A DNA stretch of 64,000 bases. It comes from Rhizobiales bacterium dw_265. GTDB lineage: Bacteria; Pseudomonadota; Alphaproteobacteria; Micropepsales; Micropepsaceae. The first letter of the stretch is position 1. The number at the start of each line of letters is the position of its first letter. Under the pieces are notes generated by a model that made no database searches, had not been told where the DNA came from, and saw only the letters and a program-made list of their open reading frames with translations. Location: the NCBI GenBank assembly GCA_018449595.1, contig JAAVUU010000006.1, forward strand, positions 124,001 through 188,000, given 5' to 3'. Of the stretch, positions 12,544 through 44,407 are shown in pieces. Both the position numbers and the translations under genes were made by a program.

Positions 12544-15500
12544 ATGTCGAACGACCTGTCCGATCGCCGGGATGCCCGGCGCTTTCCCCGCATCTGGCTC
12601 TGGCTTCCGGTTTGCCTGGTCGTGCTGTTCGCCGCCTATGTGCTGGCCGGCTTTTACCTGGTGCCGGGCCTTGTGCGCTCTGAGGCCACCGGCTGGGTGA
12701 AGACCAATCTCGACAAGCCCATCGCGCTGGGCGAGATCCGGTTCGACCCCCTCACCTTCACCCTCGACATCAGCGACATCGCGCTGCCGGCGACGTCAAA
12801 ACCGATGGTCGCGGTGGGGCACCTGCGGCTGGGCTTCTCGATCCTGTCGCTGTTCCAGCCGGCCTACCGCTTCACCGAAGTGACCCTGGACCGGCCTTTC
12901 ATCCGCGCCCGTATCGCGCCCGACGGATCGCTCAATCTGGCCGAACTCCGGACCCGCACCCATTCCAGCGGACCCAATCCGGCGGTGAAGATCAGCATCC
13001 TCACCGTCAACCAGGGCCGGGTGAACTATGCCGATGACAGCCAGGCCCAGCGGCCGGAAGAAACGCTGATCCCTATCGCCTTCACCCTCACGGATTTCCA
13101 GACCAACCTGGCGGCCGGCGGCGGCTTCACCTTGAATGCCAGAAGCGAACAGGGCGAAGGCTTTGCCTGGCGCGGCACCTTGTCCATTGCGCCCATCGCC
13201 TCGCGCGGACGCCTCGCCGTCACGGCGCTCAAGAGCGAGACGGTGCAGAAATTCCTGGGCGGAAAGATGCCGCTGGCGCTTGCCGGCGGCGAGGCCAGCG
13301 TCACCGCCGATTATGATTTCGCCTATGGCCCGCAGGGTCTGCTGCTGACCCTGTCGCTGCCCCAGGTGACGGGCAGCGGCCTGTCGGTGGTGGGCGACAA
13401 GGCGCTGTTCCGGGGCAGGCTGACCCTCGCTCGCCTGAACGTCAGCGCCGGACCCATCCGGTTTGCGGCCAATGCCCATGGCATCACCCGGCTGACGCTG
13501 GCGATGCCCAGACTGGCGCTGCAGGGGCTTGGCGTCACGGCAGCGGGTGCGAGCGCGCCGGACCTTCAACTGAGCGACGCATCGCTGAGCGGCCTGACAC
13601 TGGATTTCGGCGCGCGCAAGCTGGCGCTGGGCAGCCTGGTTCTGGATGGGGCGGCAGCGTCGGTGCGCCGCCAGCACAATGGCCAGATCAGCCTGTTGAG
13701 CCTGTTGCCGCCAAAGCCTTCCGCGCCGGTCGCAACAGCCCCGGCCCGGCCCTGGCAGATATCCCTGGACCAGTTCGCGCTCAACGGCGCGCGGGTGCGT
13801 TTCGAGGACCGGGCGCCGGCACGCCCCGCCCGCTTCGATATCGCCCCGCTCACCGTCAGCGCCACCGGCGCGAGGAGCGACCTCAGCCAGCCGGTGACCC
13901 TCCATTTCGACACCGGCATCAACGGCAAGGGCCATGCCGCCGGCGATGCCACCCTGACGCCGGCAAGCCTGGCGGGCGACCTCAAATTCACCCTGACCGG
14001 CCTGGCGTTGAAGCCTTTCGCGCCCTATCTGCCGCCGCTCAAATCGCTGGAATTGCGCTCCGGCCAGGCCAGCGCATCCGGCGCCGTGCATTTCGAAGGC
14101 GCGAACCTCAAGGCGCTGCGCTTTGCCGGCAATGCGGCCATCGGCGATTTCAGCATGCTGGAAACCAGCACCAAGAGCCCGCTGTTTGCCTGGCGCTCTT
14201 TCACGCTCAAGGGCATGGACATCCGCGACAATCGTGTCGAGATCAACCAGGCCAGTCTGGTGCGGCCGCTGGGCCAGGTGGTGGTGCTGCCCGATCGCAG
14301 CTTCAACTTCACGCCGCTGATGCCGCCCAGACCTGCCGCATCGGTCAAGGCCGCCGCCATCGTGCCGATCCGGGCCGCGTCTGCCGCGCCGGCCTGGAGG
14401 GTTCACCTGAAACGGCTTGGCATCAGCGGCGGCTCGATGGGTTTCTCCGATCTGTCCATCCAGCCCAATTTTTCCGCCCGCGTCGAGGAACTGAAAGGCA
14501 CTATCGCCAATATCACCAACGCGCCCGGCCAGAGCGCCGCCATAGACCTGAGCGGCCAGGTGATCGACCAGTTCTCGCCCGTCACCATCAAGGGTTCGAT
14601 GGACCTGATGGCCTATGACCGCCAGACCGACATGCAGCTTGCCTTCCGCAATATCGAGCTGCCGGTGTTCAATCCCTATTCCGGCCGCTATGCCGGCTAT
14701 GCCATCGCCAAGGGCAAGCTCACCACCGAACTGTCCTACAAGATCGACAACCGGGCGCTGAAGGCAGACCATCATGTGATCGTCGACCAGCTGGAATGGG
14801 GCCAGGCCAGCACCAGCAAGGATGCCGTGCCGCTGCCCGTGCGGCTGGCGACCGCCCTGCTCAAGGACAGCAAGGGCGTGATCGACCTGGACCTGCCGGT
14901 GACGGGGTCGCTGGATGATCCCAAATTCAGCATCTGGCCCATCGTCTGGCAGGTCGTCGGCAATGTCATCGAAAAGGCGGTGACCGCGCCCTTCCGCCTG
15001 ATCGGTTCGCTGTTCGAAGGCGCCGACAAGGCGCAGTACATGGATTTCGCGCCGGGCTCCGCCGGCCTGCCGCAAGGCTCGGCCGAAGCCCTGGGCGCGC
15101 TTGCCAAGGCCCTGGACCAGCGGCCCGCCTTGAAGCTCGATATTCCCGCGGGTCCGGGCATCCGCGAAGACGCCGTCGCGGTGGCCGACGGCGCGATCGA
15201 CAAGGCGCTTGTGGCCAACGGCAAGGCGGCCAGCCTCGCGGCGCTGGATGCGGACGACCAGCATGACGGGCTGGAAGATCTTTATCGCGGCAAGCTGGGC
15301 AAGAAGCCGGCCTATCCCGATTTTTCCGCCGATGCCCTCAGGGGCGCGCCCGGCGCCAAGCCCGATGCCGGCGACGATGATCGCAAGACCCTGCTGGAAT
15401 CACAGTGGATGCGCGGCGAACTGCGCAAGAGCTTCATGCCCGGCAATGCCGAACTGGCCGCGCTGGGCACGGCGCGCGCCACCGCGGTGCGCAACGCGCT

Positions 15501-15621: not shown

Positions 15622-16350
15622 TCATTCCTCCTCCGCGATGATGCGCAGCGCGGGAATATCGCGCACCGTCATCCATTGGCGGTCGAAGGCGATGACGTTC
15701 AGCCGCCGCAGCCGGTCCAGTGTGCGGTTGATATAGACGGTCGTCAGTCCCAGCGCGTCGGCGATGTCTTCCTGGCGCACCGGAAAATGAAACCGCCCTT
15801 CCTTGCTCAGGCCCCGGCCTCTCAGCCGTTCCTCCAGTTCCAGGATCAGCTGCGCCACGCGCCCCAAGGCGCTTCTGCGTCCCATGTCCACCAGGCGGCG
15901 GTTCATGCAGGCGACATTATAGTGCATGGTGGCGGCCAGCTGGCGCGCCTGGGCGCCCGATGCCTTGGTCAGCAGGATCATGTCCTCGAGCTTGAAGACG
16001 CAGACCGCGACGGCGGTGAGGCTTTTTACCGAGAAGGGAAGCGCGAAATTGGGGAAATACAGATTTTCCAGCATGATCGCATCGCCGGGGATCAGGAAAG
16101 ACAGAATCTGCCGCCGCCCGTCCGGCATCTGTTTGAAGCTGAACGCCCAGCCGGAATAAAGCGTGAAGATCTGCGACATGACCTCGCCTTCGCGCAGGAA
16201 TGTCTTCTGCGGCGCGATCTTCAGCACCCCGCGGCGGCGGGTGTAGATCTCGCCCGGTGTGGCGTCCCGCGTCGGGCCATACAGCGCGAAATGGCCGAGG
16301 CTGCAGTTCTGACACGCCAAAGGGGGCACGCGGCCCGTTTCCTCATCCAT
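15622..16350 (-). CDS. Crp/Fnr-family transcription regulator (three of four FNR cysteines)
   Basis: The frame extends 96 codons further upstream, but starting at the ATG at 16350 gives 242 residues, the usual family size. An N-terminal CxxC (C13, C16), a cyclic-nucleotide-type beta-barrel (FTLYSGWAFSFKQMPDGRRQIL) and a C-terminal winged helix (RQEDIADALGLTTVYINRTLDRLRR, residues about 190-215) are seen. A cysteine at 117 matches the fourth cluster ligand of FNR, but the third N-terminal cysteine is missing, so an intact [4Fe-4S] cluster is doubtful. It is a paralogue of the regulator at 29873. The start codon choice is uncertain. Confidence 0.85.
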   Translation of the reverse strand: MDEETGRVPPLACQNCSLGHFALYGPTRDATPGEIYTRRRGVLKIAPQKTFLREGEVMSQIFTLYSGWAFSFKQMPDGRRQILSFLIPGDAIMLENLYFPNFALPFSVKSLTAVAVCVFKLEDMILLTKASGAQARQLAATMHYNVACMNRRLVDMGRRSALGRVAQLILELEERLRGRGLSKEGRFHFPVRQEDIADALGLTTVYINRTLDRLRRLNVIAFDRQWMTVRDIPALRIIAEEE

Positions 16351-16899
16351 CTTCTTATCGTCGGGTCGCGAGGTTTTTACAGCCGGGATGCTCGACATCC
16401 TGCTTCGCAAGCATTTTGCACACTTTTCAATGGTCGGTCTGAAATCGGGGGTCGAAAGATCACGGCCGGGGAAATTGAATACAGTCTCTGCGAAACTCCG
16501 ATGAGAGTCCAAAGCAGGGTCACAACCCATTCGTGCAGATGGTTTTTGTAACAACCATTTCCAGCACGCAGCGCCGCCGAAAACGGGCGCCGATTGCCGC
16601 GCATGTTCCGGCAGGGACCGCCGATTGAGGCAGAGCAATGTCCGCGACGGCCGTGGGCATTTTGACCATTGCCATGGTTAACGATGCTCAGCGGATCGTG
16701 CAGACGGCGCTGACAGCCCCTTTGCAGGCGGCCGATACGGTCAACAATAATCCAGTTTATATATTTATCTAATAGATTGAGTTTATGGGCTTATTTGCCG
16801 CGGTTAACGCGCGATTAATCGGCAAATCCCAGCATTGCGCTCAGATATTTCCCGCGGCTGACAAGGGGTTCGCCGCCGGAAAAGCAAAGGGGTGGCGCA
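16351..16899. other. Intergenic region between the Crp/Fnr gene and the chemotaxis operon
   Basis: No credible gene is seen in these 549 bases. The part next to the chemotaxis operon (16750-16830) is A+T-rich (TTTATATATTTATCTAATAG) and includes the dyad CGATTAATCG, so the operon promoter is probably there. AAAGGGG lies eleven bases before the receptor ATG. No FNR box or flagellar sigma-28 promoter was recognised. Confidence 0.6.
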
Positions 16900-29872: not shown

Positions 29873-30643
29873 ATGTTAGAACGCGAATGTTTGCCGGCAA
29901 ATCTCCAGCCGATGTTTGACGAGAGCATCACCGTGCGCCCGCCGGTCGAATGCACGGCCTGCAGGCTGGGCCGCCATGTCATCTGCAGGCCAAACGGCAA
30001 TGCGGAGCCGGACGAGATCAATGTACGCCGCCAGGGCATAACCATGTTCGATCCCGGGAAACTTCTTGCACGCCAGGGAGAGACGGTAACGCAGAGCATG
30101 ACGCTTTATTCCGGCTGGGCCTACCGCTTCAGGCAATTGGCGGATGGGCGCCGGCAGATTCTGTCCTTTGCCGTTCCGGGCGATTTGCTGATGCCCGAAA
30201 GCGCGTTCTTTCCAGACTATGCGGCGCCCTATTCCATCAAATCCCTGACAAGAGTCTCGATCTGCATCATTCCGCTCAAGGACATGATGGCGCTGATGCA
30301 CCGCTCTCCCGAGCGGGAGCACCAGTTCAAATCGTTGATCGCGCATGAGGCCGCGGTCATGAGGCGGCTGATTGTCGATCTCGGTAAACGCAGCGCCCTG
30401 GGCCGTGTTTCCCAGCTGATCCTGGAACTGTATCACCGGCTTGCGAGCAAACAGCTCAGCGCGAAAGGGCAATTTCATTTTCCGGTAAGACAGGAGCAGC
30501 TGGCGGACGCAGTCGGGCTGACGCCGGTCTATGTCAATCGCACCCTGGACCGCCTGCGCCAGAAAAACCTGATCGCATTCGACCGCCAGCGCATGACGAT
30601 CCTGGATGTCGAGGAGCTTCATGCCATCGCGGAAGAAGAATAG
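29873..30643 (+). CDS. FNR-like Crp/Fnr regulator with four candidate cluster cysteines
   Basis: This protein of about 256 residues has C27, C30 and C38 (ECTACRLGRHVIC) plus C131 (RVSICIIP). In E. coli FNR the ligands are C20, C23, C29 and C122; the distance from third to fourth cysteine is 93 residues in both, supporting an oxygen-sensitive [4Fe-4S] cluster. The sensor barrel and the winged helix (RQEQLADAVGLTPVYVNRTLDRLR) are close to those of the paralogue at 15622. The start is uncertain: neither ATG 29873 nor ATG 29912 has a clear ribosome site. Confidence 0.88.
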   Translation: MLERECLPANLQPMFDESITVRPPVECTACRLGRHVICRPNGNAEPDEINVRRQGITMFDPGKLLARQGETVTQSMTLYSGWAYRFRQLADGRRQILSFAVPGDLLMPESAFFPDYAAPYSIKSLTRVSICIIPLKDMMALMHRSPEREHQFKSLIAHEAAVMRRLIVDLGKRSALGRVSQLILELYHRLASKQLSAKGQFHFPVRQEQLADAVGLTPVYVNRTLDRLRQKNLIAFDRQRMTILDVEELHAIAEEE

Positions 30644-33817: not shown

Positions 33818-35043
33818 TCACACCGGGCCCGGTCGCTCCATTACAATGCCATGAGCTTCGGGACCAACCTTCATCAGCGCGGCGATAGACAGCGCGGCAA
33901 ATGCCGCCACCACGGCCAGGGCAATGGAATAATTGCCTGTGCGTTCGGCGATGGCTGTCTGCAGGACGGCATTAACCGAGGCGATCAGGTTGCCCAGCTG
34001 ATAATAGGTCCCCGGAAAGGTGCCCCTGGCTGCGGCAGGCGACAATTCATTGAGATGGGCCGGGACCACGCCCCAGGCGCCCTGAACGCAGAACTGCATC
34101 ATGAAGGCTCCCGCAGCAAGCATTCCGGCAGTGGTCGAAAAGGCCCACAGACCCACCACGGGCAACGCCAGAAGCGCTATCACGATCACCGTCCTGCGCC
34201 TGCCAAAGTTCTGGCTGATCGAACCGAAGATCAACCCGCCGGCGATGGCGCCTATATTGTAGATCACGGCGACGTTCTTCACCGTGGCAGGACCGAAGTG
34301 ATGCTGCACCTGAAGGAAGGTGGGATAAATATCCTGGGTGCCATGACTGAAAAAGTTATAACAGGTCATCAGCGCGATGGCATACAGCGCCATCTTCCAG
34401 TGATCGCGCAGTACAGAAAATGTTGAAGCAGCGGGCGACCGCGCCTGCCGGCGATAGAAATGCTGTGATTCTGGGACACAGAAAAAGATATAGGCGATCA
34501 GCAACAACGCCGGCAGCACGCCGCTCATGAACATGCCGCGCCAGCCTATCGCGGCATAAAAAAACCATAAACCAGGGACGCTACCAGATAGCCCGAAGGA
34601 TATCCCGACTGCAGGATGCCCGAAACCATGCCGCGCGCTTTCCCGGGTATGGTCTCCATGGAAAGCGAGGCGCCGATACCCCAGACGCCTCCCATCGCCA
34701 CTCCGAAACAGGCGCAGACCGCATAGAAGGTCCACAGCCCAGTGGTGAAGGCTATGGCGAAGCTGAGCAGCGAATAGAGCAGCACATCCAGCATTAGGAT
34801 GGGACGGCGGCCGAAGTAATCCGCCAACCGGCCGAAGAGAAAGGCGCCGATGGGCTTGCAGGCCAGTGTCAGCATGACCGCGACCGCGATCCTGGGAATG
34901 GATGTACCGAACTGAGCCGCTATATCCTTGAACACAAAAACCATCAGGAAGAAATCGTAGGCGTCCATCGTCCAGGCGAGGTAGCTGGCCGTTACGGTAT
35001 GGATCGCGGCTCCGGTCCATGGCGATGCTTTGCTGAAAACCAT
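33818..35043 (-). pseudogene. MFS transporter of SHS (sialate/lactate-type) family, frameshifted at a run of seven A
   Basis: Two overlapping frames make one carrier. The N-terminal part starts at ATG 35043 (GGAAG upstream) with the SHS signature WTMDAYDFFLMV and GRLADYFGRRPIL, and stops soon after VASLVYGFFM. The C-terminal part continues as FFYAAIGWRGMF and contains FSHGTQDIYPTFL, diagnostic of the SHS group, to 33818. The break lies at A7 (34558-34564, T7 in the gene); adding one base restores VYGFFYAAIGW. It is either a true inactivating deletion, a phase-variable homopolymer or a sequencing error. Neighbouring cupin genes suggest it imports an organic acid. Confidence 0.85.
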
Positions 35044-35066
35044 CGTGTCTTCCGGTCCTGCCAATG

Positions 35067-35474
35067 TCAGGGCACGGCAGCGGGGGTTAGCAGCGGCTTG
35101 CCTTTGTCGACCGTCCAGGCATTGACCAACTTGACCGCTTCATCGCCCAACGGAACGGAGCGGTGGATAGCGCCGCGCGGAACCATAAAGCTGTCGCCAG
35201 GACCCAGTTCGCGCGGCGCCTGGCCCACGACTTCCAGGCGGATGTGTCCCTGCACGACATATCCCATCTCACTACCATAATGGGTATGGAACGGATTGCC
35301 GCTGCCCGGGGCGACTTCGACGGTGCCGAACAGGGTTTCCTGCGCAGGATCGGCAGCGACATCCGCTCGCTGCAGGATAATGCGCCGCGCCGCCGGCTTG
35401 GGCGTATCCTGTGCAGCGGCGGAAACCAGACAGACCGTGAGAAACGCGACAGTGAAACCGGACCAGCGCATCAT
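35067..35474 (-). CDS. Exported single-domain cupin protein
   Basis: This 135-residue protein has a signal peptide (RWSGFTVAFLTVCLVSAAAQ) and one cupin domain with metal-ligand motifs: GNPFHTHYGSEMGYVVQG (H-x-H...E) and GDSFMVPRGAIHRS (H). The start at ATG 35474 with AGG upstream is preferred; a longer frame to 35678 is an artefact. It is third of three consecutive exported cupins. A catalytic role (isomerase or dioxygenase-like) on the compound handled by the cluster is possible but not shown. Confidence 0.85.
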   Translation of the reverse strand: MMRWSGFTVAFLTVCLVSAAAQDTPKPAARRIILQRADVAADPAQETLFGTVEVAPGSGNPFHTHYGSEMGYVVQGHIRLEVVGQAPRELGPGDSFMVPRGAIHRSVPLGDEAVKLVNAWTVDKGKPLLTPAAVP

Positions 35475-35479
35475 GGCAC

Positions 35480-35974
35480 CTATTGCCGGATGAAACCGGG
35501 AGCCCCAGGGGTAGCAGTCTTCTTGCCGCTGGGCCCCACCCCCATCATCTGCACGATGGTCTCTTCGTTCCGGGCGCCGTCGTAATGCACCTTGCCGGCG
35601 GGATGGATCATAATCCCTCCGACCGGAATCCCCACCGCCGAGGCGGGATCGAACTTGTCGCCGGTCCCTGTCCACCAAGTGCCCTTGATCACGGTGCCAA
35701 TCCGGGTCTCGGGATGGGAATGGGGCGTGCTCATCACCCCGGGCGGAAATTTCAGGCGAATGACATACAGGCCTTGCTTGGTGGGATCACCATAGATGAA
35801 AGCTTCCTTGATGCCGAATTTGGCACCGTCGCCGGGATAGTCCACCCATTTGATCGTTTCCGGCGTCAGGCGCAGGAAATCGGTACCGTCGGAACCCATA
35901 TTCTGACCATGGACGACGGTGCCACCGGCCACCGCCAGAAAAGCAGCAAGGCCGGCGATCTTCCAATTTTTCAT
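35480..35974 (-). CDS. Exported cupin protein
   Basis: This 164-residue protein has a signal peptide (KIAGLAAFLAVAGGTVVHGQ) and a cupin fold: PPGVMSTPHSHPETRIGTVIKG supplies the H-x-H-x3-E set, and HPAGKVHYDGARNEE the last histidine. GGAG lies nine bases before the ATG at 35974. Proteins of this kind resemble the DUF4437/ChrR-type cupins. It is five bases from the next cupin gene, hence an operon. Confidence 0.85.
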   Translation of the reverse strand: MKNWKIAGLAAFLAVAGGTVVHGQNMGSDGTDFLRLTPETIKWVDYPGDGAKFGIKEAFIYGDPTKQGLYVIRLKFPPGVMSTPHSHPETRIGTVIKGTWWTGTGDKFDPASAVGIPVGGIMIHPAGKVHYDGARNEETIVQMMGVGPSGKKTATPGAPGFIRQ

Positions 35975-36003
35975 GATGCTGAACTCCAATATTGGCTGGG
36001 ACG

Positions 36004-36933
36004 TCATTCGCCGCCGGTATGTTCGGACTGGTAGTAATGCAGACTGGGCGGGCGTGGTGTGACCGCCAGGCGCGTCCCCATGGCGGTGCCGCCCGAGGTG
36101 GCACGATGCCAGCGCTCCTCGGGGGCAAACACGATGTCGCCGACGTTGGCGGTGATCGGTGGCACGCCCTCGATCAGGAAATCGAGCTTACCTTCCAATA
36201 CGATCCAGAACTCCGCGAAGTTCTCGTGGAAATGGCCGTAATTGCTGTCCGGCGGCGTGGGAATGCCCGGCGTGCGGATGATATTGGCCCAGGTATGATC
36301 ATCCTTGACAAAAGGACCGCCCTTGCCATTTGCCCCCACAATGTCTTTTTCAAAATCGATATAGAGCCTGTTGATCTCGTCATACTTGCCGCGGCCCGTA
36401 TAACTCGCCTTGGTGAATTTGAAGCCGGGCACGGGCACAGGCGTTTCGGCGATCGGATAGCTTGGGGTTTCACCTGCCGCCCGCACCTCAAAACGCAGCG
36501 ACGGCGCAGTGCCTACCGTTTCCATGCTGTAGGGAATGCGATAAGGCACTTGCACCAGGAAACCCTTCGACGCCACGAACGGCTCCTGGCCCTCGACGGT
36601 GAAGCGAATCTGCCCCGACATTACAACCCAGAAGACGCGGTCGTCGGCATAGAATTGGGTCTTGGTCTTTCGGCCAGGAGCCATGGAGATATACTGTCCG
36701 ACGTAATCGCGGGTCAGCACCTCAGTCTCGGCCCAGTCGCTCTGACCGGCATGACGAGCCAAGATATCGGACAGCCGCCTGAGCGGCTTGTTGGGCGGTG
36801 TGAACGGCGCCGGCTTTTTCGGCTGTGGCGCCCATGCCAGCAAGGACGCGGACTTCTCAGGCTGGGCCCCCGCCACGACGGCCGTCAGCAGCGACAGAAC
36901 AACGAAAGATGCGGCGTATCTCAATGAAAACAT
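36004..36933 (-). CDS. Exported two-domain cupin (bicupin)
   Basis: This protein of about 309 residues has a signal peptide (FSLRYAASFVVLSLLTAVVAGAQ). The first cupin half (about 60-160) has weak ligands. The second (about 225-300) carries GHFHENFAEFWIVLEGKLDF and GDIVFAPEERWH, an intact H-x-H...E...H metal site. GGGGGAA ten bases upstream selects ATG 36933 rather than the TTG at 36951. It leads the cupin series and is preceded by the 39-bp element shared with the TonB receptor gene. Confidence 0.85.
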   Translation of the reverse strand: MFSLRYAASFVVLSLLTAVVAGAQPEKSASLLAWAPQPKKPAPFTPPNKPLRRLSDILARHAGQSDWAETEVLTRDYVGQYISMAPGRKTKTQFYADDRVFWVVMSGQIRFTVEGQEPFVASKGFLVQVPYRIPYSMETVGTAPSLRFEVRAAGETPSYPIAETPVPVPGFKFTKASYTGRGKYDEINRLYIDFEKDIVGANGKGGPFVKDDHTWANIIRTPGIPTPPDSNYGHFHENFAEFWIVLEGKLDFLIEGVPPITANVGDIVFAPEERWHRATSGGTAMGTRLAVTPRPPSLHYYQSEHTGGE

Positions 36934-37023
36934 CCGATGTGCTTCCCCCAAAATGCTTGTTATTTTTCTATTTTCCGTCGTCGATTGTTGGCAAGCGATC
37001 CTGCGCCGTCAACGCTGCACGGA

Positions 37024-37062
37024 CGATTTGTTTTGATCGCATCATCTGCTTTTGTGATCGCG
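37024..37062. promoter_or_regulatory. 39-bp element upstream of the cupin operon, shared with the TonB receptor gene
   Basis: CGATTTGTTTTGATC at the left end, then ATCTG, TTTTG, GAT and GCG at fixed distances, are identical to 41289-41327 (31 of 39 positions counted by eye). The element lies 91 bp before the bicupin start on the same relative strand as the second copy, 83 bp before the TonB gene. Within it TTTTG-x0-2-GATC-like units repeat about two helical turns apart, as expected for a dimeric activator such as LysR. Confidence 0.6.
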
Positions 37063-37088
37063 TCCCTGATGCGCCGTAAGATCGAATA

Positions 37089-37964
37089 TCATATCGCACG
37101 GAATGCCTTTCCATACAGGCGGGCGGAGTCGAGGAAAGTGGATAAAGCGCTGGAGACGAAACCGTCGCGGCGGCGCGCGAACAATGTCTGCACCTGGCAA
37201 TCCTCGCCGGTGACGCGGTGGGCGCGCATCGCATCGGGCGGCGCCAAGTTGAGCACCGCGCGCGGCAGCAGGGTGACGCCAAGCCCGGCGCCGACGCAGC
37301 CCACGATCAACTCCAGCGTGTCAAGCTCCATGACGCGGGCGACCTCGATATTCTGGCGGGCAAGAATGGCGCGCAACCGGCGTTGGTAATAGCTGCCCTG
37401 CCCCAGCACAATCAGCCTTGTGTTGGATGGGATCGCCGCGATGCTGGAAATTTCAGGGGCGGTGAAAACCGCCAGTTCCTCGTCCAGGATGATCTCGGTC
37501 ACCAGATCGTGGTGCTTGGCCGGATCGCAGACGAAAGCGCCCTCGATCCGGCGCTCCAGGATCAGATCGGTCAGCAGAGGCGTCGTTTCGGTGCGCACCG
37601 TGATGTCCACCGCCGGAAATTCAGCCAGATAGGAGCATAGCAGCTTGTTCAGATGCAGGGCGGTAGTGGTCTTGCGCGAACCGATCACCAATGGCCCACT
37701 GGGCGTGCCGCCATCGGTAATGGCGCGCTTGGCGTTTTCGATTTCCACCCGGACTTCAATAGCGTAAGGCAACAGCCGGATACCTGCCGGTGTCAGAACC
37801 ATGCCGCTCGAGCGCCGCTCGAACAACAGAACTCCCAGCTCATCTTCCAGAGCGCGAATGTGGGCCGTCACGTTGGATTGGACCGTATTCAGTTCCAGCG
37901 CCGCGCGCTTCATGCCCTCATGGCGCGCCACCGCTTCGAAAACCCTGAGATCCTTGACATCCAA
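37089..37964 (-). CDS. LysR-family regulator (first paralogue, TTG start)
   Basis: The 291-residue form starts at TTG 37964, seven bases after GGAG, and reads LDVKDLRVFEAVARHEGMKRAA. The paralogue at 43493 begins MDAKDLRVFEVVARHEGMKRAA, so this start is well supported and the longer frame (334 residues) is wrong. It has an N-terminal winged helix (NTVQSNVTAHIRALEDELGVLLFERR) and a LysR substrate domain (GPLVIGSRKTTTALHL). It is close to CbbR/CysB-like regulators of unknown inducer. It probably controls the adjacent cupin and TonB genes. Confidence 0.92.
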   Translation of the reverse strand: MDVKDLRVFEAVARHEGMKRAALELNTVQSNVTAHIRALEDELGVLLFERRSSGMVLTPAGIRLLPYAIEVRVEIENAKRAITDGGTPSGPLVIGSRKTTTALHLNKLLCSYLAEFPAVDITVRTETTPLLTDLILERRIEGAFVCDPAKHHDLVTEIILDEELAVFTAPEISSIAAIPSNTRLIVLGQGSYYQRRLRAILARQNIEVARVMELDTLELIVGCVGAGLGVTLLPRAVLNLAPPDAMRAHRVTGEDCQVQTLFARRRDGFVSSALSTFLDSARLYGKAFRAI

Positions 37965-38064
37965 AGCCGTTCTCCGCCTCAAAAAGAAGATGAGCGCCGC
38001 GACATAAGCCGCAGCGCTCAAGACCTGGCCGCTCAGGGGGACTAAGCGATCAGTCTTTACCTCG

Positions 38065-38124
38065 GGGCCCATGAAGCGTGGGCCCAAAGGCAACCTCGAC
38101 GCACATACTGCTTGCGGGCAGTAT
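38065..38124 (-). terminator. Two stem-loops after the TonB receptor gene
   Basis: ATACTGC-TTGCGG-GCAGTAT (38105-38124) lies five bases past the stop, and GGGCCCA-TGAAGCG-TGGGCCC (38065-38085) further on. Both are perfect 7-bp stems. Neither is followed by a U-run, so they may end transcription weakly or protect the message 3' end. Confidence 0.4.
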
Positions 38125-38128
38125 ATGC

Positions 38129-41100
38129 TTACATTTTGACGCGCACACCCAAGCGGTAATAGCGCCCGACGATATCATAGGTCGTCACATTGATGCCGCT
38201 GGAGGAAACTGCAGGCGGCAGATTGGCGATATTATCTACTTTGCCGTAAACCTGCGTCGTGTCGCTCAGATTGTAGCTGGCACCGACGTCGAGATAAAAT
38301 GCACCATCCATATGGTTATAGTTGATGGTCGGGTTGGCGACCGTAGGCAACGGACAGCTTCCGACATCGCATTGAATGTACGACTTGTTGAACACGCCAT
38401 CGGAAAACCAGCGCTCGGTAAGAGTCAAGCTACCCCAGTCAGCGGTGTAATCCTCGGTGACGTACGCCTTCCACAGAGGCGTTGTACCTCCGGTGGCATT
38501 GTAGGTTGTGCTGGTGCTGAAATTGGCTAGCGCGCCGGCGGTTTCGGAAATCGGCTGACCCGGCACGCCAGGATCGGTGATGAACTTGCTGGTATGATTG
38601 ACCAAAGCGCGCAAAGTGAAGGCGCCGGGGACGTTCCAGTCCTGCAAGTCGAACTGATAGGACGATTCAATGTCGAACCCATCCGTCGTCTGCGACGCTA
38701 GATTGAATACTTGTGAGACGATTTGCTTGAATGGAGACGTCGCCGCCGGACCGCCATCGGCGGTTACGATTACATTGCCACCGCAATAAGCAGCGTTGCC
38801 GTAATAGCACAGGTCCACGACGTTCTGGATCGAGAGCGCAGCAATTACACCTTTGACGGCGATGCGGTAATAATCGACCGAGGTGCTGAAGCCGGGGAGC
38901 CAGTCAGGCTGGAAGACCACGCCAATCTCGGTGGTTTGCGACTTTTCAGGCTTCAGCGCCAGGTTGCCCGCATTGACCTGCTGGACGCTAACCGCCGGCG
39001 TGCCTGGCAGGAAGTCGTTCTTAACCGTGGAATTCATAACCGAGCTCGGTGCGAACAATTCGCTGAGGTTCGGAGCGCGCACGTCGCGCGATTGCAGGGC
39101 GCGCAGACGGACGCCGGGAATCGGCGTTTCCCAAGTACCACCAACCTTCCAGGTCATCACCTGTCCAGAGGTGCTGTAGCCCGTCATGCGACCGGCAAGA
39201 TCAACATCCATTTTTCCCCAGGTTGCATCGTTGAGCACCGGAATTCCGACTTCCACGAAACCTTCGCTTTCGTGATAGTTGCCCTTACCATCATGGAAAT
39301 TGCCGGCATACCAACTGTTGCCGGCGGTTCCAGTCACCGGATCGACAGGATACGCCATGGTGTTGGGATTGGTGGCCGTGACGCCGTTGCCGTATGGATC
39401 ATCATAGGTGTTATAGGCTTCCTCGCGATATTCCACACCGGTAGCCAACGCGATCGGGCCGGCCCAATCCGAGAAGGGCGTGCCATTGACACTGAGGCTG
39501 AATGCCTCCTGCCTTTGACTGGTGATGGAGTAGGGGCCATCGGCCGGCTCGACATAGGCTAGCGCTTCCGGCGAAATCGGCACGTCGCCGATGATGTTGA
39601 GCGGCACGCAACCCGCCGCCTGCGCAACCGCCGAGCGGCACACGATGGAGCCGTTGGGACCTGCCACCGCGTCAATTGCTGCATTGTAGCGCGGGGTCAG
39701 CGACATGTTCTTGATATGGATGCTGGTATCTGACTCGCCGTGTTCGAAATAGCTGTCCCATGACCAGTCCTTGTTAAACAGGCGGAACTGGCCATCTGCG
39801 CCGACTACATAACGGCGCTGGGCATGATAAACGTCGATCTGCTCATAATTTGGGAAAGCGGCGCTTTCGGTGCCGTACTGGAAGTTCGTGATGTTGTTGG
39901 CGATGCAGGCCGCGTTGATCGAGGCGGGCAGGAACGCGTTGGGACCACCGGGAGCATTGCCGCACTGAATGGTGAGGTTTGCGTTCTTGTAGGGGCCCGG
40001 ATTGGGGTGGCTCATGCCGCGGGAGACGCCGAAATTGACCGTGGCATAGACCTCCATATCCGGCGTCAGGTTGTAGGATAGGCGGGTGTAGAAATTGCCG
40101 CGCGTCAGGGCGGACTGTAGTGTTTGCCCGCTCTGGAAGCTGCTGAGATCTCCCGGATCCGCGGCGGTGCCGAAGCAGGTGGGGCTGACGCAGCCATTCA
40201 CCGCACCGCTGGCGGAGTGGGACGGAGTGCCGCCGCCGGCATAATTGAAGTTATAGGGCGCGCCGTTGACGCCGAAGCCGATACCCTGCAGCGGGCCGGC
40301 CGTGATCAGACCATACTTCGTATACTGATAATTCTGCGCCGGGGCACCAAACGTATATTCCGGCGAACCGGCAGGCGTCGCCGCGATGGAACGCATCTGG
40401 ACACCGGTGAATTGATTGAAATTGCGGCCGTCGATGCCGTGGCTGTCATAGCCGGTATCGGCCGGATGGCCGGTCGGCTGGATGCCGGGACTGTACATGT
40501 ATTCGGCGGCCCCCTCGATATGACCGCGCCCCCCGAACAGGTCGGTGCCCAAGGCGATCTGGCCGGTGCCGCCTTCGTCATCACCATAATTGCTGATGCC
40601 GCCTTGAATATTAGCCTTCAGGCCAGTGAAGTGCTTGTCGGTTACGAAGTTAACCACGCCCGCCACCGCGTCGGAGCCCCAGGAGGCAGACGCGCCGCCG
40701 GTCACCACATCGACACGCTGCAGCAGCAGCTGCGGCATTAAGCTGACATCGACCACGCCGTTGAAGTTGGAGCCCACGACGCGCTGGCCATCCAGCAGTG
40801 TCAAGGTGCGCAGCGGACTGAGGCCGCGCAAGGCAAAAGCGGAAATGCCGTTCAGGCCCGTGCTGGTTGAACCGGTTTCGTAGGTCGTGCCGGTGCTGCC
40901 CTGCAATGCGGGCAACTGCACGATAGCGTCGAAAACATTGGGCTGGGCATTCTTCTCGATGTCGGCGGCCCCCACCACGGTGGTCGGCGTGGGTGCATCG
41001 AAGCCTGCGCTCTGCAGGCGTGTGGATGAGACGACGACCTGCTCGACCTGTTCGCTGGCGGCCTGGGCAGAGGCCGACGTGGCCCCCGCCACGGACGCCA

Positions 41101-41206
41101 TCAGCAGCAGCGCGGCCGCGCTGGTTGTCGACATCATATGCTTGCCGCGAAAAATAGCGATGTTATGCAACGGCGCAATGCGCCGGTTGCCGTATCGAAC
41201 CGTCAT
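38129..41206 (-). CDS. TonB-dependent outer-membrane receptor
   Basis: This protein of about 1025 residues has a long signal region ending SVAGATSASAQ near residue 48, then a TonB-box-like EQVEQVVVSSTR. The plug domain (about 60-180) has GLNGISAFALRGLSPLRTLTLLDGQR and DVVTGGASASWGSDAVAGVVNF. A barrel follows and ends with YYRLGVRVKM. GAGG before ATG 41206 selects the start over 41338. The plug and length fit the oligosaccharide/aromatic receptors of Sphingomonas-Caulobacter type rather than small siderophore receptors. It probably imports the substrate of the PQQ dehydrogenase. Confidence 0.93.
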   Translation of the reverse strand: MTVRYGNRRIAPLHNIAIFRGKHMMSTTSAAALLLMASVAGATSASAQAASEQVEQVVVSSTRLQSAGFDAPTPTTVVGAADIEKNAQPNVFDAIVQLPALQGSTGTTYETGSTSTGLNGISAFALRGLSPLRTLTLLDGQRVVGSNFNGVVDVSLMPQLLLQRVDVVTGGASASWGSDAVAGVVNFVTDKHFTGLKANIQGGISNYGDDEGGTGQIALGTDLFGGRGHIEGAAEYMYSPGIQPTGHPADTGYDSHGIDGRNFNQFTGVQMRSIAATPAGSPEYTFGAPAQNYQYTKYGLITAGPLQGIGFGVNGAPYNFNYAGGGTPSHSASGAVNGCVSPTCFGTAADPGDLSSFQSGQTLQSALTRGNFYTRLSYNLTPDMEVYATVNFGVSRGMSHPNPGPYKNANLTIQCGNAPGGPNAFLPASINAACIANNITNFQYGTESAAFPNYEQIDVYHAQRRYVVGADGQFRLFNKDWSWDSYFEHGESDTSIHIKNMSLTPRYNAAIDAVAGPNGSIVCRSAVAQAAGCVPLNIIGDVPISPEALAYVEPADGPYSITSQRQEAFSLSVNGTPFSDWAGPIALATGVEYREEAYNTYDDPYGNGVTATNPNTMAYPVDPVTGTAGNSWYAGNFHDGKGNYHESEGFVEVGIPVLNDATWGKMDVDLAGRMTGYSTSGQVMTWKVGGTWETPIPGVRLRALQSRDVRAPNLSELFAPSSVMNSTVKNDFLPGTPAVSVQQVNAGNLALKPEKSQTTEIGVVFQPDWLPGFSTSVDYYRIAVKGVIAALSIQNVVDLCYYGNAAYCGGNVIVTADGGPAATSPFKQIVSQVFNLASQTTDGFDIESSYQFDLQDWNVPGAFTLRALVNHTSKFITDPGVPGQPISETAGALANFSTSTTYNATGGTTPLWKAYVTEDYTADWGSLTLTERWFSDGVFNKSYIQCDVGSCPLPTVANPTINYNHMDGAFYLDVGASYNLSDTTQVYGKVDNIANLPPAVSSSGINVTTYDIVGRYYRLGVRVKM

Positions 41207-41288
41207 CGTTTCCCCTCTGTGTTTTTTGGCATCTCTGCCTTCGCTAACAGATGGGTTAGGAAGCCGATCCAAGTCAATTCTTGTGGAG

Positions 41289-41327
41289 CGATTTGTTTTG
41301 ATCTGCCGATCTGTTTTTGCGATTGCG
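41289..41327. promoter_or_regulatory. 39-bp element upstream of the TonB receptor gene
   Basis: Second copy of the element at 37024-37062, same orientation. The mismatches are concentrated in the middle five bases. The left half (CGATTTGTTTTGATC) is identical. It lies in the 229-bp divergent interval between the TonB receptor and PQQ dehydrogenase genes, so it might also serve the latter; a looser GATTTG...TTTGATTTT resemblance occurs at about 41358-41383. Confidence 0.6.
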
Positions 41328-41435
41328 GCAATCAACATCGTTGCGATGACATCGCTTGATTTGCGCAGTGCTTTGATTTTGGAATGTCACCGAGCCGTGA
41401 TGGCACTCATCGCCGGCGCACAGGAGACGATCGCG

Positions 41436-43502
41436 ATGACTTCCCTTACCAGGCGAACCCTGCTTTCGACAGCGGCCGTCGGCCTTTCCACATCAGTTTG
41501 GCCTGCATCGGCGCATGCATCTACCGATAGCGATTGGCGCAATTATGCCAACGATCTGGCCAACAGCCGGTATGCACCGCTGGACCAGATCAATGCTTCG
41601 AACTTCAGCAACCTGGAAGTGGCATGGCGCTTCCGCACCGAAGCGTTAGGACCGCACCCCGAATATCAATATGAGGCGACGCCACTCGTCATAAGCGGAA
41701 AACTTTACAGCACTGCAGGATCGCGGCGCGACGTGATCTGCCTCGATGCAGCGAGCGGCGAGATCATCTGGATGCACGGCGAAAATGAGGGTGAGCGTGG
41801 TACCAACGCACCGCGGCAGCTGTCGGGACGCGGTGTCGCCTATTGGACGGACGGTACCGGCGACGGCCGCATCCTGTATGTGACGCCGGGTTATCGCCTG
41901 ATCGCTCTGGATGCAAGGACCGGAATTCCCATTGAAGGATTTGGAAGCAACGGCGTCGTCGATCTCAAGCTCGATGACGATCAGCAGATTGATCTCGTCA
42001 CCGGAGACGTGGGGTTACATGCTACGCCGGTCGTGGCCGGCAATGTAGTGATTGTCGGCGCAGCCCATCTCTCGGGCAGCGTTCCCAAGCACCGCGGCAA
42101 TATTAAGGGCTATGTGCGCGGCTTCGATGTTAGGACCGGCAAGCGTATCTGGATCTTCCACACGATCCCACTCAAGGGCGAATTCGGTTACGACACATGG
42201 CTGCATCCAGGGGATGCGGAAATAGCCGGCAACGCCGGATGTTGGGGCCAGATCTCGGTGGATATGGAACTCGGCCTCGCTTATCTGCCCATTGAACTTC
42301 CGAGCGGCGATGAAGTCGGTATTTATCGTAGCGGATCGGCATTGTTTGGCGAGAGCATTGTCGCCGTTGAACTTCAGACCGGCAAACGCCGCTGGCATTA
42401 CCAGACAGTTCATCATGGACTTTGGGACCGCGATATTCCATGCGCCCCGCTCCTGTGCGACATCCCCCATGAGGGTCGGATCGTCAAAGCGCTGGCGCAA
42501 CCGACCAAGCAATGTTTTCTCTATGTACTGGATCGCGAGACCGGCAAACCGATCTGGCCGATTCCTGAGAGGCCGCAACCCGCCGGCAACGTGCCCGGAG
42601 AGTGGTACTCTCCGACGCAGCCGATTCCCTCACGACCGCCGGCATACGATGTGCAATCTATCAACGCCGATACGATAATAGATTTTACGCCCGAGCTACA
42701 TGCGAAGGGACTGGAAATCATCTCGCATTATCGTACCGGCGGCATCTATACCCCGCCGACACTTTCGACCTCCGGCGGCAGTTGGGGATCGTTGGTCGCG
42801 CTGACGACGCAGGGCGGCACCAACTGGCCAGGCGGCGCCTACGACCCCGAAACACACTTGGCTTATGTCTTCTCGCAAACCACGGCCGGCGCGATGGGCG
42901 TGGTGCCTGTCACCGATAAGAAGGTGTCGGAATTTGCGTATGTCCATGGTATGGCCGGCGAGGAAACCAAGCCAGTCGGCGTCATGGGCGGTATATCACG
43001 GCCCGGCGTTCCGGCGAAAGAAGCACCTCCGGCAGGTGGCCTGCATCCAGGCCGGCTGATGGTGGACGGCCTGCCCCTGATGAAACCGCCATACGGGCGT
43101 ATTACCGCCATCGACCTCACCAAGGGCAACATAGCTTGGCAGATAGCACACGGCGAGACCCCGGACTATATCCGCAATCATCCTGCCCTGAAGGGCCTCA
43201 AAATTCCCCGTACGGGACGGCCTGGACTATTGGGGGTAACGCTGACGAAAACACTGGTTATCTGCGGCGAGGCTGGCTTTTTCACGACCCCCTCGGGCCG
43301 ACGCGGCGCGATGCTACGAGCCTATGACAAGGCGAACGGTGAAGAAAAAGGCGCTGTCTATATGCCTGCGCCACAGACCGGTTCTCCCATGACCTTCATG
43401 CTGGACGGACGCCAGTATATCGTGGTGGCCATAGGGGGAGGCGGCTATCCAGCCGAATTGATCGCGTTCTGCCTGCCGCGCGATCGTCAGGGTCAGGCTT
43501 GA
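41436..43502 (+). CDS. Tat-exported PQQ-dependent dehydrogenase (quinoprotein glucose dehydrogenase-like)
   Basis: This 688-residue periplasmic protein has a twin-arginine signal (TRRTLLSTAAVGLSTSVWPA, cleaved near SAHA). An eight-bladed PQQ propeller follows: DWRNYANDLANSRYAPLDQI, GDGRILYVTPGYRLIALDARTG, KLYSTAGSRRDVICLDAASG, GRITAIDLTKGNIAWQIAHGE. It lacks the N-terminal membrane domain of mGDH, so electrons go to a soluble or membrane acceptor not in the window. AGGAG lies nine bases before ATG 41436. Its end overlaps the convergent LysR gene by 10 bp. The substrate is unknown; family members oxidise sugars, alcohols and shikimate-type acids. Confidence 0.92.
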   Translation: MTSLTRRTLLSTAAVGLSTSVWPASAHASTDSDWRNYANDLANSRYAPLDQINASNFSNLEVAWRFRTEALGPHPEYQYEATPLVISGKLYSTAGSRRDVICLDAASGEIIWMHGENEGERGTNAPRQLSGRGVAYWTDGTGDGRILYVTPGYRLIALDARTGIPIEGFGSNGVVDLKLDDDQQIDLVTGDVGLHATPVVAGNVVIVGAAHLSGSVPKHRGNIKGYVRGFDVRTGKRIWIFHTIPLKGEFGYDTWLHPGDAEIAGNAGCWGQISVDMELGLAYLPIELPSGDEVGIYRSGSALFGESIVAVELQTGKRRWHYQTVHHGLWDRDIPCAPLLCDIPHEGRIVKALAQPTKQCFLYVLDRETGKPIWPIPERPQPAGNVPGEWYSPTQPIPSRPPAYDVQSINADTIIDFTPELHAKGLEIISHYRTGGIYTPPTLSTSGGSWGSLVALTTQGGTNWPGGAYDPETHLAYVFSQTTAGAMGVVPVTDKKVSEFAYVHGMAGEETKPVGVMGGISRPGVPAKEAPPAGGLHPGRLMVDGLPLMKPPYGRITAIDLTKGNIAWQIAHGETPDYIRNHPALKGLKIPRTGRPGLLGVTLTKTLVICGEAGFFTTPSGRRGAMLRAYDKANGEEKGAVYMPAPQTGSPMTFMLDGRQYIVVAIGGGGYPAELIAFCLPRDRQGQA

Positions 43503-44407
43503 ACCAGCGACAGCATCCGGCGAGGCCGTTCGTCATGCAGATGCTGGCGGCCATAGGCGCGCGCGCAGTCGAGGAAGGCGGACAGGGCACTCGAAACGAA
43601 GGCATCGCCACGCCGCACGAACAGCGTCTGAACCCTGCAATCTTCGTCCGCCACGCGATGAGCTCGCACACTGCCCCGAGGAGAAATCATGTTGAGCACT
43701 GCGCGCGGCAACAATGTGATACCCAGACCGGCACTTACACAATCCACGATTACTTCCAATGTTCCCAACTCGATTATCCGGCCGGCATTGACACCCCGGC
43801 GTGCAAGCAGCGCCTGCAACTGGTTCTGGTAGAAGCTGCCCTGCCCAAGCACCACCAGCTTGATGTCGTGCGGAATGTCTTTCATCCGGTGGATGTTGGG
43901 CGATGTCAGAACCACAAGCTCTTCGTCCAGAATGACTTCGCCTACCAAATCATGATGATCCACGGGATCGCAGACGAATGCTCCCTCGATGCGGCGTTTC
44001 AAGATCAGATCCTTCAACAACGGAGAGGTCTCGGTGCGGACCTTGATGTCCACGTCAGGGAAATCGCCCAAATAGGAAGCGAGAATCCGCCCGAGATGCA
44101 TGGCTGTCGTGGATTTACGCGATCCAATCACCAGCGGGCCAGACGGCGTTCCCCCATCGGTGGCGGCGCGCCTGGCATCTTCGATCGTGGAGCGCACTTC
44201 ATGAGCATAAGGAAGCAAACGAAGTCCCGCGGGCGTCAGGACCATGCCGGTCGGACGTCGCTCGAATAGCGACACCCCCAGTTCATCCTCCAGCGCACGA
44301 ATGCGCGCTGTCACATTGGACTGTACGGTGTTCAGTTCCCTGGCAGCCCGCTTCATGCCTTCATGGCGGGCCACAACTTCAAATACTCTCAGATCCTTCG
44401 CATCCAT
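43493..44407 (-). CDS. LysR-family regulator (second paralogue)
   Basis: This 304-residue protein is highly similar throughout to the regulator at 37089 (for example NTVQSNVTARIRALEDELGV, GPLVIGSRKSTTAMHL, RRIEGAFVCDPVDHHDLV). GGAGG lies six or seven bases before ATG 44407. The two paralogues flank the TonB receptor and PQQ dehydrogenase genes, and probably arose by duplication inside the cluster. They may bind the same 39-bp element in response to different ligands. Confidence 0.93.
   Translation of the reverse strand: MDAKDLRVFEVVARHEGMKRAARELNTVQSNVTARIRALEDELGVSLFERRPTGMVLTPAGLRLLPYAHEVRSTIEDARRAATDGGTPSGPLVIGSRKSTTAMHLGRILASYLGDFPDVDIKVRTETSPLLKDLILKRRIEGAFVCDPVDHHDLVGEVILDEELVVLTSPNIHRMKDIPHDIKLVVLGQGSFYQNQLQALLARRGVNAGRIIELGTLEVIVDCVSAGLGITLLPRAVLNMISPRGSVRAHRVADEDCRVQTLFVRRGDAFVSSALSAFLDCARAYGRQHLHDERPRRMLSLVQA

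Follow-up and report, generated by a model that had tools for sequence, protein, structure and literature searches.

The window, i.e., the whole 64-kb stretch of DNA analysed here, carries two copies of a 39-bp element, one (copy A) before a cupin operon and the other (copy B) between the divergent genes for a TonB-dependent receptor and a PQQ-dependent dehydrogenase. The genes and features of the locus are as follows:

33818..35064, minus strand: MFS transporter gene with a frame broken near 34546-34570 (two halves in different frames, one family)
35067..35471, minus strand: cupin protein C (domain search)
35480..36007, minus strand: cupin-like protein B (weak, below the Pfam cut-offs)
36004..36933, minus strand: cupin protein A, the first gene behind copy A, with two cupin stretches and an N-terminal signal-like stretch (domain search)
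37024..37062, minus strand: copy A, predicted operator before the cupin operon, reading CGCGATCACAAAAGCAGATGATGCGATCAAAACAAATCG on the minus strand (31/39 identity to copy B; top-scoring place in the genome, 17.3 bits, for a model made of foreign sites alone)
37089..37964, minus strand: LysR1, a LysR-type transcriptional regulator (LTTR) with a probable TTG start (Pfam HTH_1 and LysR_substrate)
37991..38020, minus strand: terminator-like hairpin between the TonB-receptor gene and LysR1 (13-pair stem, then TCTTCTTTTT)
38129..41206, minus strand: TonB-dependent receptor, predicted target of copy B (plug and beta-barrel domains)
41289..41327, minus strand: copy B, predicted operator in the gap from which the TonB-receptor and PQQ-dehydrogenase genes diverge (12.4 bits in this orientation)
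41436..43502, plus strand: PQQ-dependent dehydrogenase, divergent from copy B, a possible further target (PF01011)
43493..44407, minus strand: LysR2, paralogue of LysR1 (72% identity; sister in the tree, support 0.975)

The earlier note on this DNA had reported the two copies at these coordinates, in a single orientation and with 31/39 identity, all of which was borne out by direct comparison; the distances to the start codons, given there as 91 and 83 bp, were close to the measured 90 bp (copy A to the cupin ATG at 36933) and 82 bp (copy B to the TonB-receptor ATG at 41206). On the strand of the TonB-receptor gene that it precedes, copy B reads CGCAATCGCAAAAACAGATCGGCAGATCAAAACAAATCG. The flanks of the copies are unrelated, and the likeness ends with the element, save for a TTGAC lying exactly 11 bp beyond both. 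The other 39-mers of the 64-kb window resembled either copy at 22/39 positions at best, and the best match of copy A across 40 shuffled windows was 24/39. Over all window pairs, 0.05 pairs as good as copies A and B are expected at the composition of the window, and this expectation rises to 2.7 if the composition is taken from the A+T-rich element. Taken alone, the bare repeat is only moderately improbable and is weak evidence by itself, so that evidence beyond the repeat was needed; it was supplied by the comparison with relatives.

The two LysR genes had been described as paralogues flanking the copies. The paralogy stands, the flanking of both copies does not: LysR1 sits between the copies (26 bp separate it from copy A), and LysR2 is located some 2.2 kb past copy B. 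The next relatives of the pair in the tree are two same-genus homologues. Searches at the level of genus, class and phylum yielded homologues of LysR1 and LysR2 (41-63% identity), and the recognition-helix stretch TVQSNVT is identical in 26/27 proteins of the clade. The gene neighbourhoods around these homologues differ from that of the window and are therefore unusable as support for a regulon. The strong hairpin before LysR1 lies only 26 bp from its start codon and leaves little room for a promoter of its own, so that transcription of LysR1 may rely on read-through from the promoter at copy B; such read-through may create a feedback loop.

A 34-bp pattern of the element, with up to 3 mismatches allowed, occurred only as copies A and B in the 4.2-Mb genome and returned nothing from 95 other genomes of the order. 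As direct DNA-similarity footprinting had failed in these genomes, the LysR gene was used as a guide instead; contig scans with the LysR proteins as queries gave nothing or only remote matches. In most of the homologous loci, ATCTG-N5-CAGAT or a near variant adjoins the LysR gene, and once the loci were aligned on this box, a second part appeared at a fixed distance: ATC-N9-GAT is followed by 7 (rarely 6) bases and ATC-N7-AYCG, often then by TTT. The pattern ATC-N9-GAT-N6/7-ATC-N7-AYCG adjoins LysR1/LysR2 homologues in 13 other genomes, with the same bipartite layout as in the window. It replaces the "TTTTG...GATC units" proposed earlier as the repeat unit, since the unit conserved across relatives is ATC-N9-GAT and then ATC-N7-AYCG. 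In the window, the parts of this layout and the adjoining promoter boxes were assigned as follows:

37044..37058, minus strand: distal half of copy A, ATC-N9-GAT (T-N11-A, the predicted LTTR recognition half-site; read directly and found in 19/19 related loci)
37024..37037, minus strand: proximal half of copy A, ATC-N7-ATCG, putative activation half-site (aligned with ATC-N7-AYCG of the relatives)
37007..37012, minus strand: predicted -35 box of the cupin genes, TTGACG, 11 bp past copy A (sequence reading)
41309..41323, minus strand: distal half of copy B, ATC-N9-GAT (read directly; the identical 15-mer adjoins a LysR homologue in the related locus L060)
41289..41302, minus strand: proximal half of copy B, ATC-N7-ATCG (read directly and aligned)
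41272..41277, minus strand: predicted -35 box of the TonB-receptor gene, TTGACT, 11 bp past copy B and so at the same spacing as that of copy A (direct reading)
41307..41335, plus strand: partial reverse-facing match at copy B, toward the PQQ dehydrogenase (13.2 bits with model R1, see below)

Both copies thus contain T-N11-A within an imperfect dyad and a second half-site nearer the promoter, and the LysR-family gene adjoining copy A at 26 bp has its domains confirmed. AACAAT, 17 bp beyond TTGACG, may serve as a weak -10 box of the cupin promoter; promoter-like sites around this promoter were no more frequent than in shuffled sequences.

To quantify the association with the regulator gene, patterns were counted in 271 kb from 19 related loci, divided into 7.6 kb beside LysR genes and the other 263 kb. 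All 19 loci have ATC-N9-GAT at 200 bp or less from the LysR gene; it was counted 28 times beside LysR genes vs. 82 times elsewhere, a 12-fold enrichment; ATC-N9-GAT-N5-7-ATC was counted 14 times beside LysR vs. 11 elsewhere, and the full pattern of the window copies (spacer 5-7 bp) 8 times vs. none, these counts depending in part on the choice of pattern, as the spacer range was widened after the relatives had been seen. The leave-one-out ranks are cleaner: the site beside the LysR gene ranked first in 9/9 seed loci. Outside the seed, the top match of the seed matrix in 20 kb lay just behind the LysR gene in 4/4 loci. The spacer is 6 bp in the window copies vs. 7 bp in 16/17 aligned foreign sites. 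In two loci of the same genus (L051 and L052), only the palindromic half is clear and the full site is not; this and the spacer difference count against an operator reading of the copies. The relatives of the TonB receptor in other genomes of the genus gave no model match, a point in favour of that reading.

Some sites lie elsewhere than beside the homologue used as a query. In L060, a site (12706-12745) is found about 55 bp before a nitronate-monooxygenase-like gene, with the LysR gene 2 kb away; operators of this kind can thus be remote from the regulator, as in the window. In L082 (Paraburkholderia), a site at 5917-5955 precedes a second, adjacent LysR gene that is not the query homologue, and L080 has a match (5939-5976) at the corresponding place, where the genes are unannotated.

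For the search of the own genome, we used a sequence-only model with gaps allowed (R1), built from 13 foreign sites and containing no window sequence. Over the 4.2-Mb genome, R1 gave copy A 17.3 bits and copy B 12.4 bits in the expected orientation, plus 13.2 bits for copy B in reverse; nothing besides copies A and B was returned at E up to 10. The E-values themselves, rough as they are from short sequence models, are modest (0.025 for copy A and 0.9 for copy B), and the strength of the result is that nothing else scores. The genome-wide search with the element suggested in the earlier note, when run with this window-free model, thus returned the two copies only. A second model, R2, which includes the window copies, again found only copies A and B, indicating that the genome holds no further strong sites, in particular none upstream of LysR2; the upstream regions of LysR1 and LysR2 themselves gave no match with either model. 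The reverse-facing match at 41307..41335, which uses the same recognition half as copy B, is absent from the R2 listing.

R1 was also applied to 9 independent homologous loci held out from it. In 4 of them, L069, L083 (Caballeronia), L079 (Rhizobium sp. AB2/73) and L081 (R. tropici), the best match lay about 50 bp or less from the LysR gene; the other 5/9 loci gave no R1 match. One locus missed by R1, from Acidiphilium (L084), carries a site of the same layout recognised by eye, ATCATATAATACGAT-CTCCTCT-ATC-TTATAAA-TTCG, located between the LysR gene and divergent genes for a YbfB-type MFS transporter and a nitronate monooxygenase. An ungapped matrix of the foreign sites placed copy A at rank 2 in the window and copy B only at rank 68, owing to the window spacer being one base shorter, and the gap-allowing model solved this. 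Two other high matches of the ungapped matrix, at 16737 and 49778, are A+T-rich stretches that did not recur with the gapped model and were discarded.

The earlier note had proposed a regulon of exported cupins, TonB receptor, PQQ dehydrogenase and MFS carrier. A shared LysR operator before the cupin operon and the TonB-receptor gene is supported by the conserved site and by the genome search. For the PQQ dehydrogenase, which starts 108 bp from copy B, is divergent from it and is faced by the partial reverse match, joint control from copy B is plausible, no more; its best NCBIfam match is the glucose/quinate/shikimate family, below the cut-off. The MFS gene is downstream of the cupins and co-oriented with them, but has no intact reading frame in the assembly; the break is near a run of seven A and is either a genuine frameshift or a fault of the assembly. 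In relatives, the usual gene behind the site encodes a YbfB/YjiJ-type MFS transporter or a nitronate monooxygenase, and a search of the own genome for the YbfB family gave remote members only. A similar set of genes is found on the Sphingobium indicum plasmid pSRL1 (L085, record 45913-64680), comprising a PQQ dehydrogenase, cytochrome c, an SMP-30/gluconolactonase, two cupin genes, an MFS transporter and a TonB receptor; the PQQ dehydrogenases are 34% identical, and cupin protein A is 44% identical to a cupin of this cluster. The operator was looked for in the pSRL1 cluster and is absent there, and the cupin/PQQ/MFS/TonB module thus probably exists independently of regulation by this operator.

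The comparisons with relatives and the genome searches demonstrate a conserved predicted operator, its tie to the LysR1/LysR2 clade and its uniqueness in the genome. We consider it very probable that each of the 39-bp copies makes up a full operator for the regulator clade of LysR1/LysR2, and that the cupin operon and the TonB-receptor gene form the regulon, which perhaps extends to the PQQ dehydrogenase. LysR binding and activation rather than repression are what we infer, and the roles of the half-sites are taken from general knowledge of LTTRs. The distal half, ATC-N9-GAT, would be the recognition site held by a LysR dimer; it has T-N11-A within it and is more conserved than any other part, which fits an expected recognition site. 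The proximal half, ATC-N7-ATCG, 6 bp further toward the gene, would be the activation site for a second dimer. With the ligand, the tetramer would settle on both halves and recruit RNA polymerase to a promoter whose TTGAC -35 box lies at an equal distance (11 bp, about one helical turn) from both copies; the weak -10 boxes are as expected where a promoter needs an activator. LTTR tetramers are described as holding the recognition site and shifting on the activation site upon ligand binding (PMC12609908).

The same layout could also be read with the opposite sign, the LysR proteins binding both copies but acting as repressors, with both targets off in the absence of the ligand. LTTRs can act as repressors, and the two-site layout fits either sign. 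Moreover, PtrR of E. coli, whose family has the best score among the named ones, is reported to repress sad (PMC9068703), which counts for repression. However, the proximal half-site lies upstream of the -35 box and not over it, and the -10 boxes are weak in the manner of activator-dependent promoters, which would point to activation; we regard repression, a variant of our reading with the sign reversed, as unlikely.

Far less probable is that the copies serve another regulator, with the LysR genes as chance neighbours. The window does encode two Crp/Fnr-type regulators of similar make-up, one confirmed (29873-30643) and one read at 15622-16638, and copy A contains TTGATCGCATCAT, which is loosely Fnr-box-like. 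But the spacing of this stretch is wrong and it is missing from copy B, so that a Crp/Fnr box was rejected, and the site tracks the LysR homologues through unrelated neighbourhoods in other families and classes. About as improbable is a reading in which the copies bind nothing and are either left over from the duplication of a promoter segment or alike by chance. The LysR paralogy does show a past duplication in the area, and 31/39 identity alone is not beyond chance at the composition of the element, but the likeness does not extend past the element and the -35 box, the flanks being unrelated, and the pattern is kept beside homologues in other families and in Betaproteobacteria. We thus retain the reading of both copies as operators of the LysR1/LysR2 clade, which would tie the exported cupins, the TonB receptor and probably the PQQ dehydrogenase into one two-promoter response and narrow the search for the substrate.

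The operator type as such is ordinary. In LTTR operators, a T-N11-A recognition half is distal and the activation half is nearer the promoter; the window copies are alike in the distal T-N11-A dyad, the promoter-nearer second half, a centre-to-centre distance of about two helical turns and the adjoining LysR gene. What is new is the operator of an uncharacterised LysR clade, for which a testable consensus in Alpha- and Betaproteobacteria is now at hand: within the open-access literature searched, no description of the sequence ATC-N9-GAT-N6/7-ATC-N7-AYCG was found. The closest layout is that of the nod box bound by NodD in rhizobia, with the core AT-N11-AT-N7-AT (PMC4782375; also PMC5596368) and the full consensus AT-N11-AT-N7-AT-N2-A-N4-AT-N2-ATT-N-T (PMC4782375). 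Most of the foreign sites have this layout in common, and those of L061 and L065 match 11/13 fixed positions, whereas both window copies match only 8/13 and have an N6 spacer. R1 did not find a nod box of Sinorhizobium meliloti in L078, and NodD is absent among the best 25 NCBIfam matches of the LysR proteins. We rejected the window copies as nod boxes on account of the positions matched, the spacer and the failure of R1 to find the nod box, and kept the likeness as one of layout, the two being set apart by the sites alone; the shared layout offers a concrete case for how LysR operators diversify. Tentatively, and with the odds rather against it, one may imagine that an undescribed, widespread LysR clade uses an operator of nod-box layout, the nod box being one case of an older design, and that the duplicated pair described here has abandoned the usual nitronate monooxygenase/MFS targets and now governs a cluster for surface uptake and oxidation from two shared operators, perhaps in competition or in mixed tetramers.

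Among named LysR families, PtrR (YneJ), the regulator of putrescine utilisation in E. coli, scores highest for both proteins, but its 160 and 188 bits are far below the curated cut-off of NF047711 (400 bits), so the identity was rejected. Its published operator, TTCtCGATTCGTGAA (PMC9068703), differs from copies A and B by direct comparison and was likewise set aside. The LysR regulators of Alphaproteobacteria whose genes neighbour those for YbfB/YjiJ MFS transporters and nitronate monooxygenases belong to the same clade (about 46-55% identity) and have the same operator; the window differs from these loci in its predicted targets, which are the cupins, the TonB receptor and perhaps the PQQ dehydrogenase.
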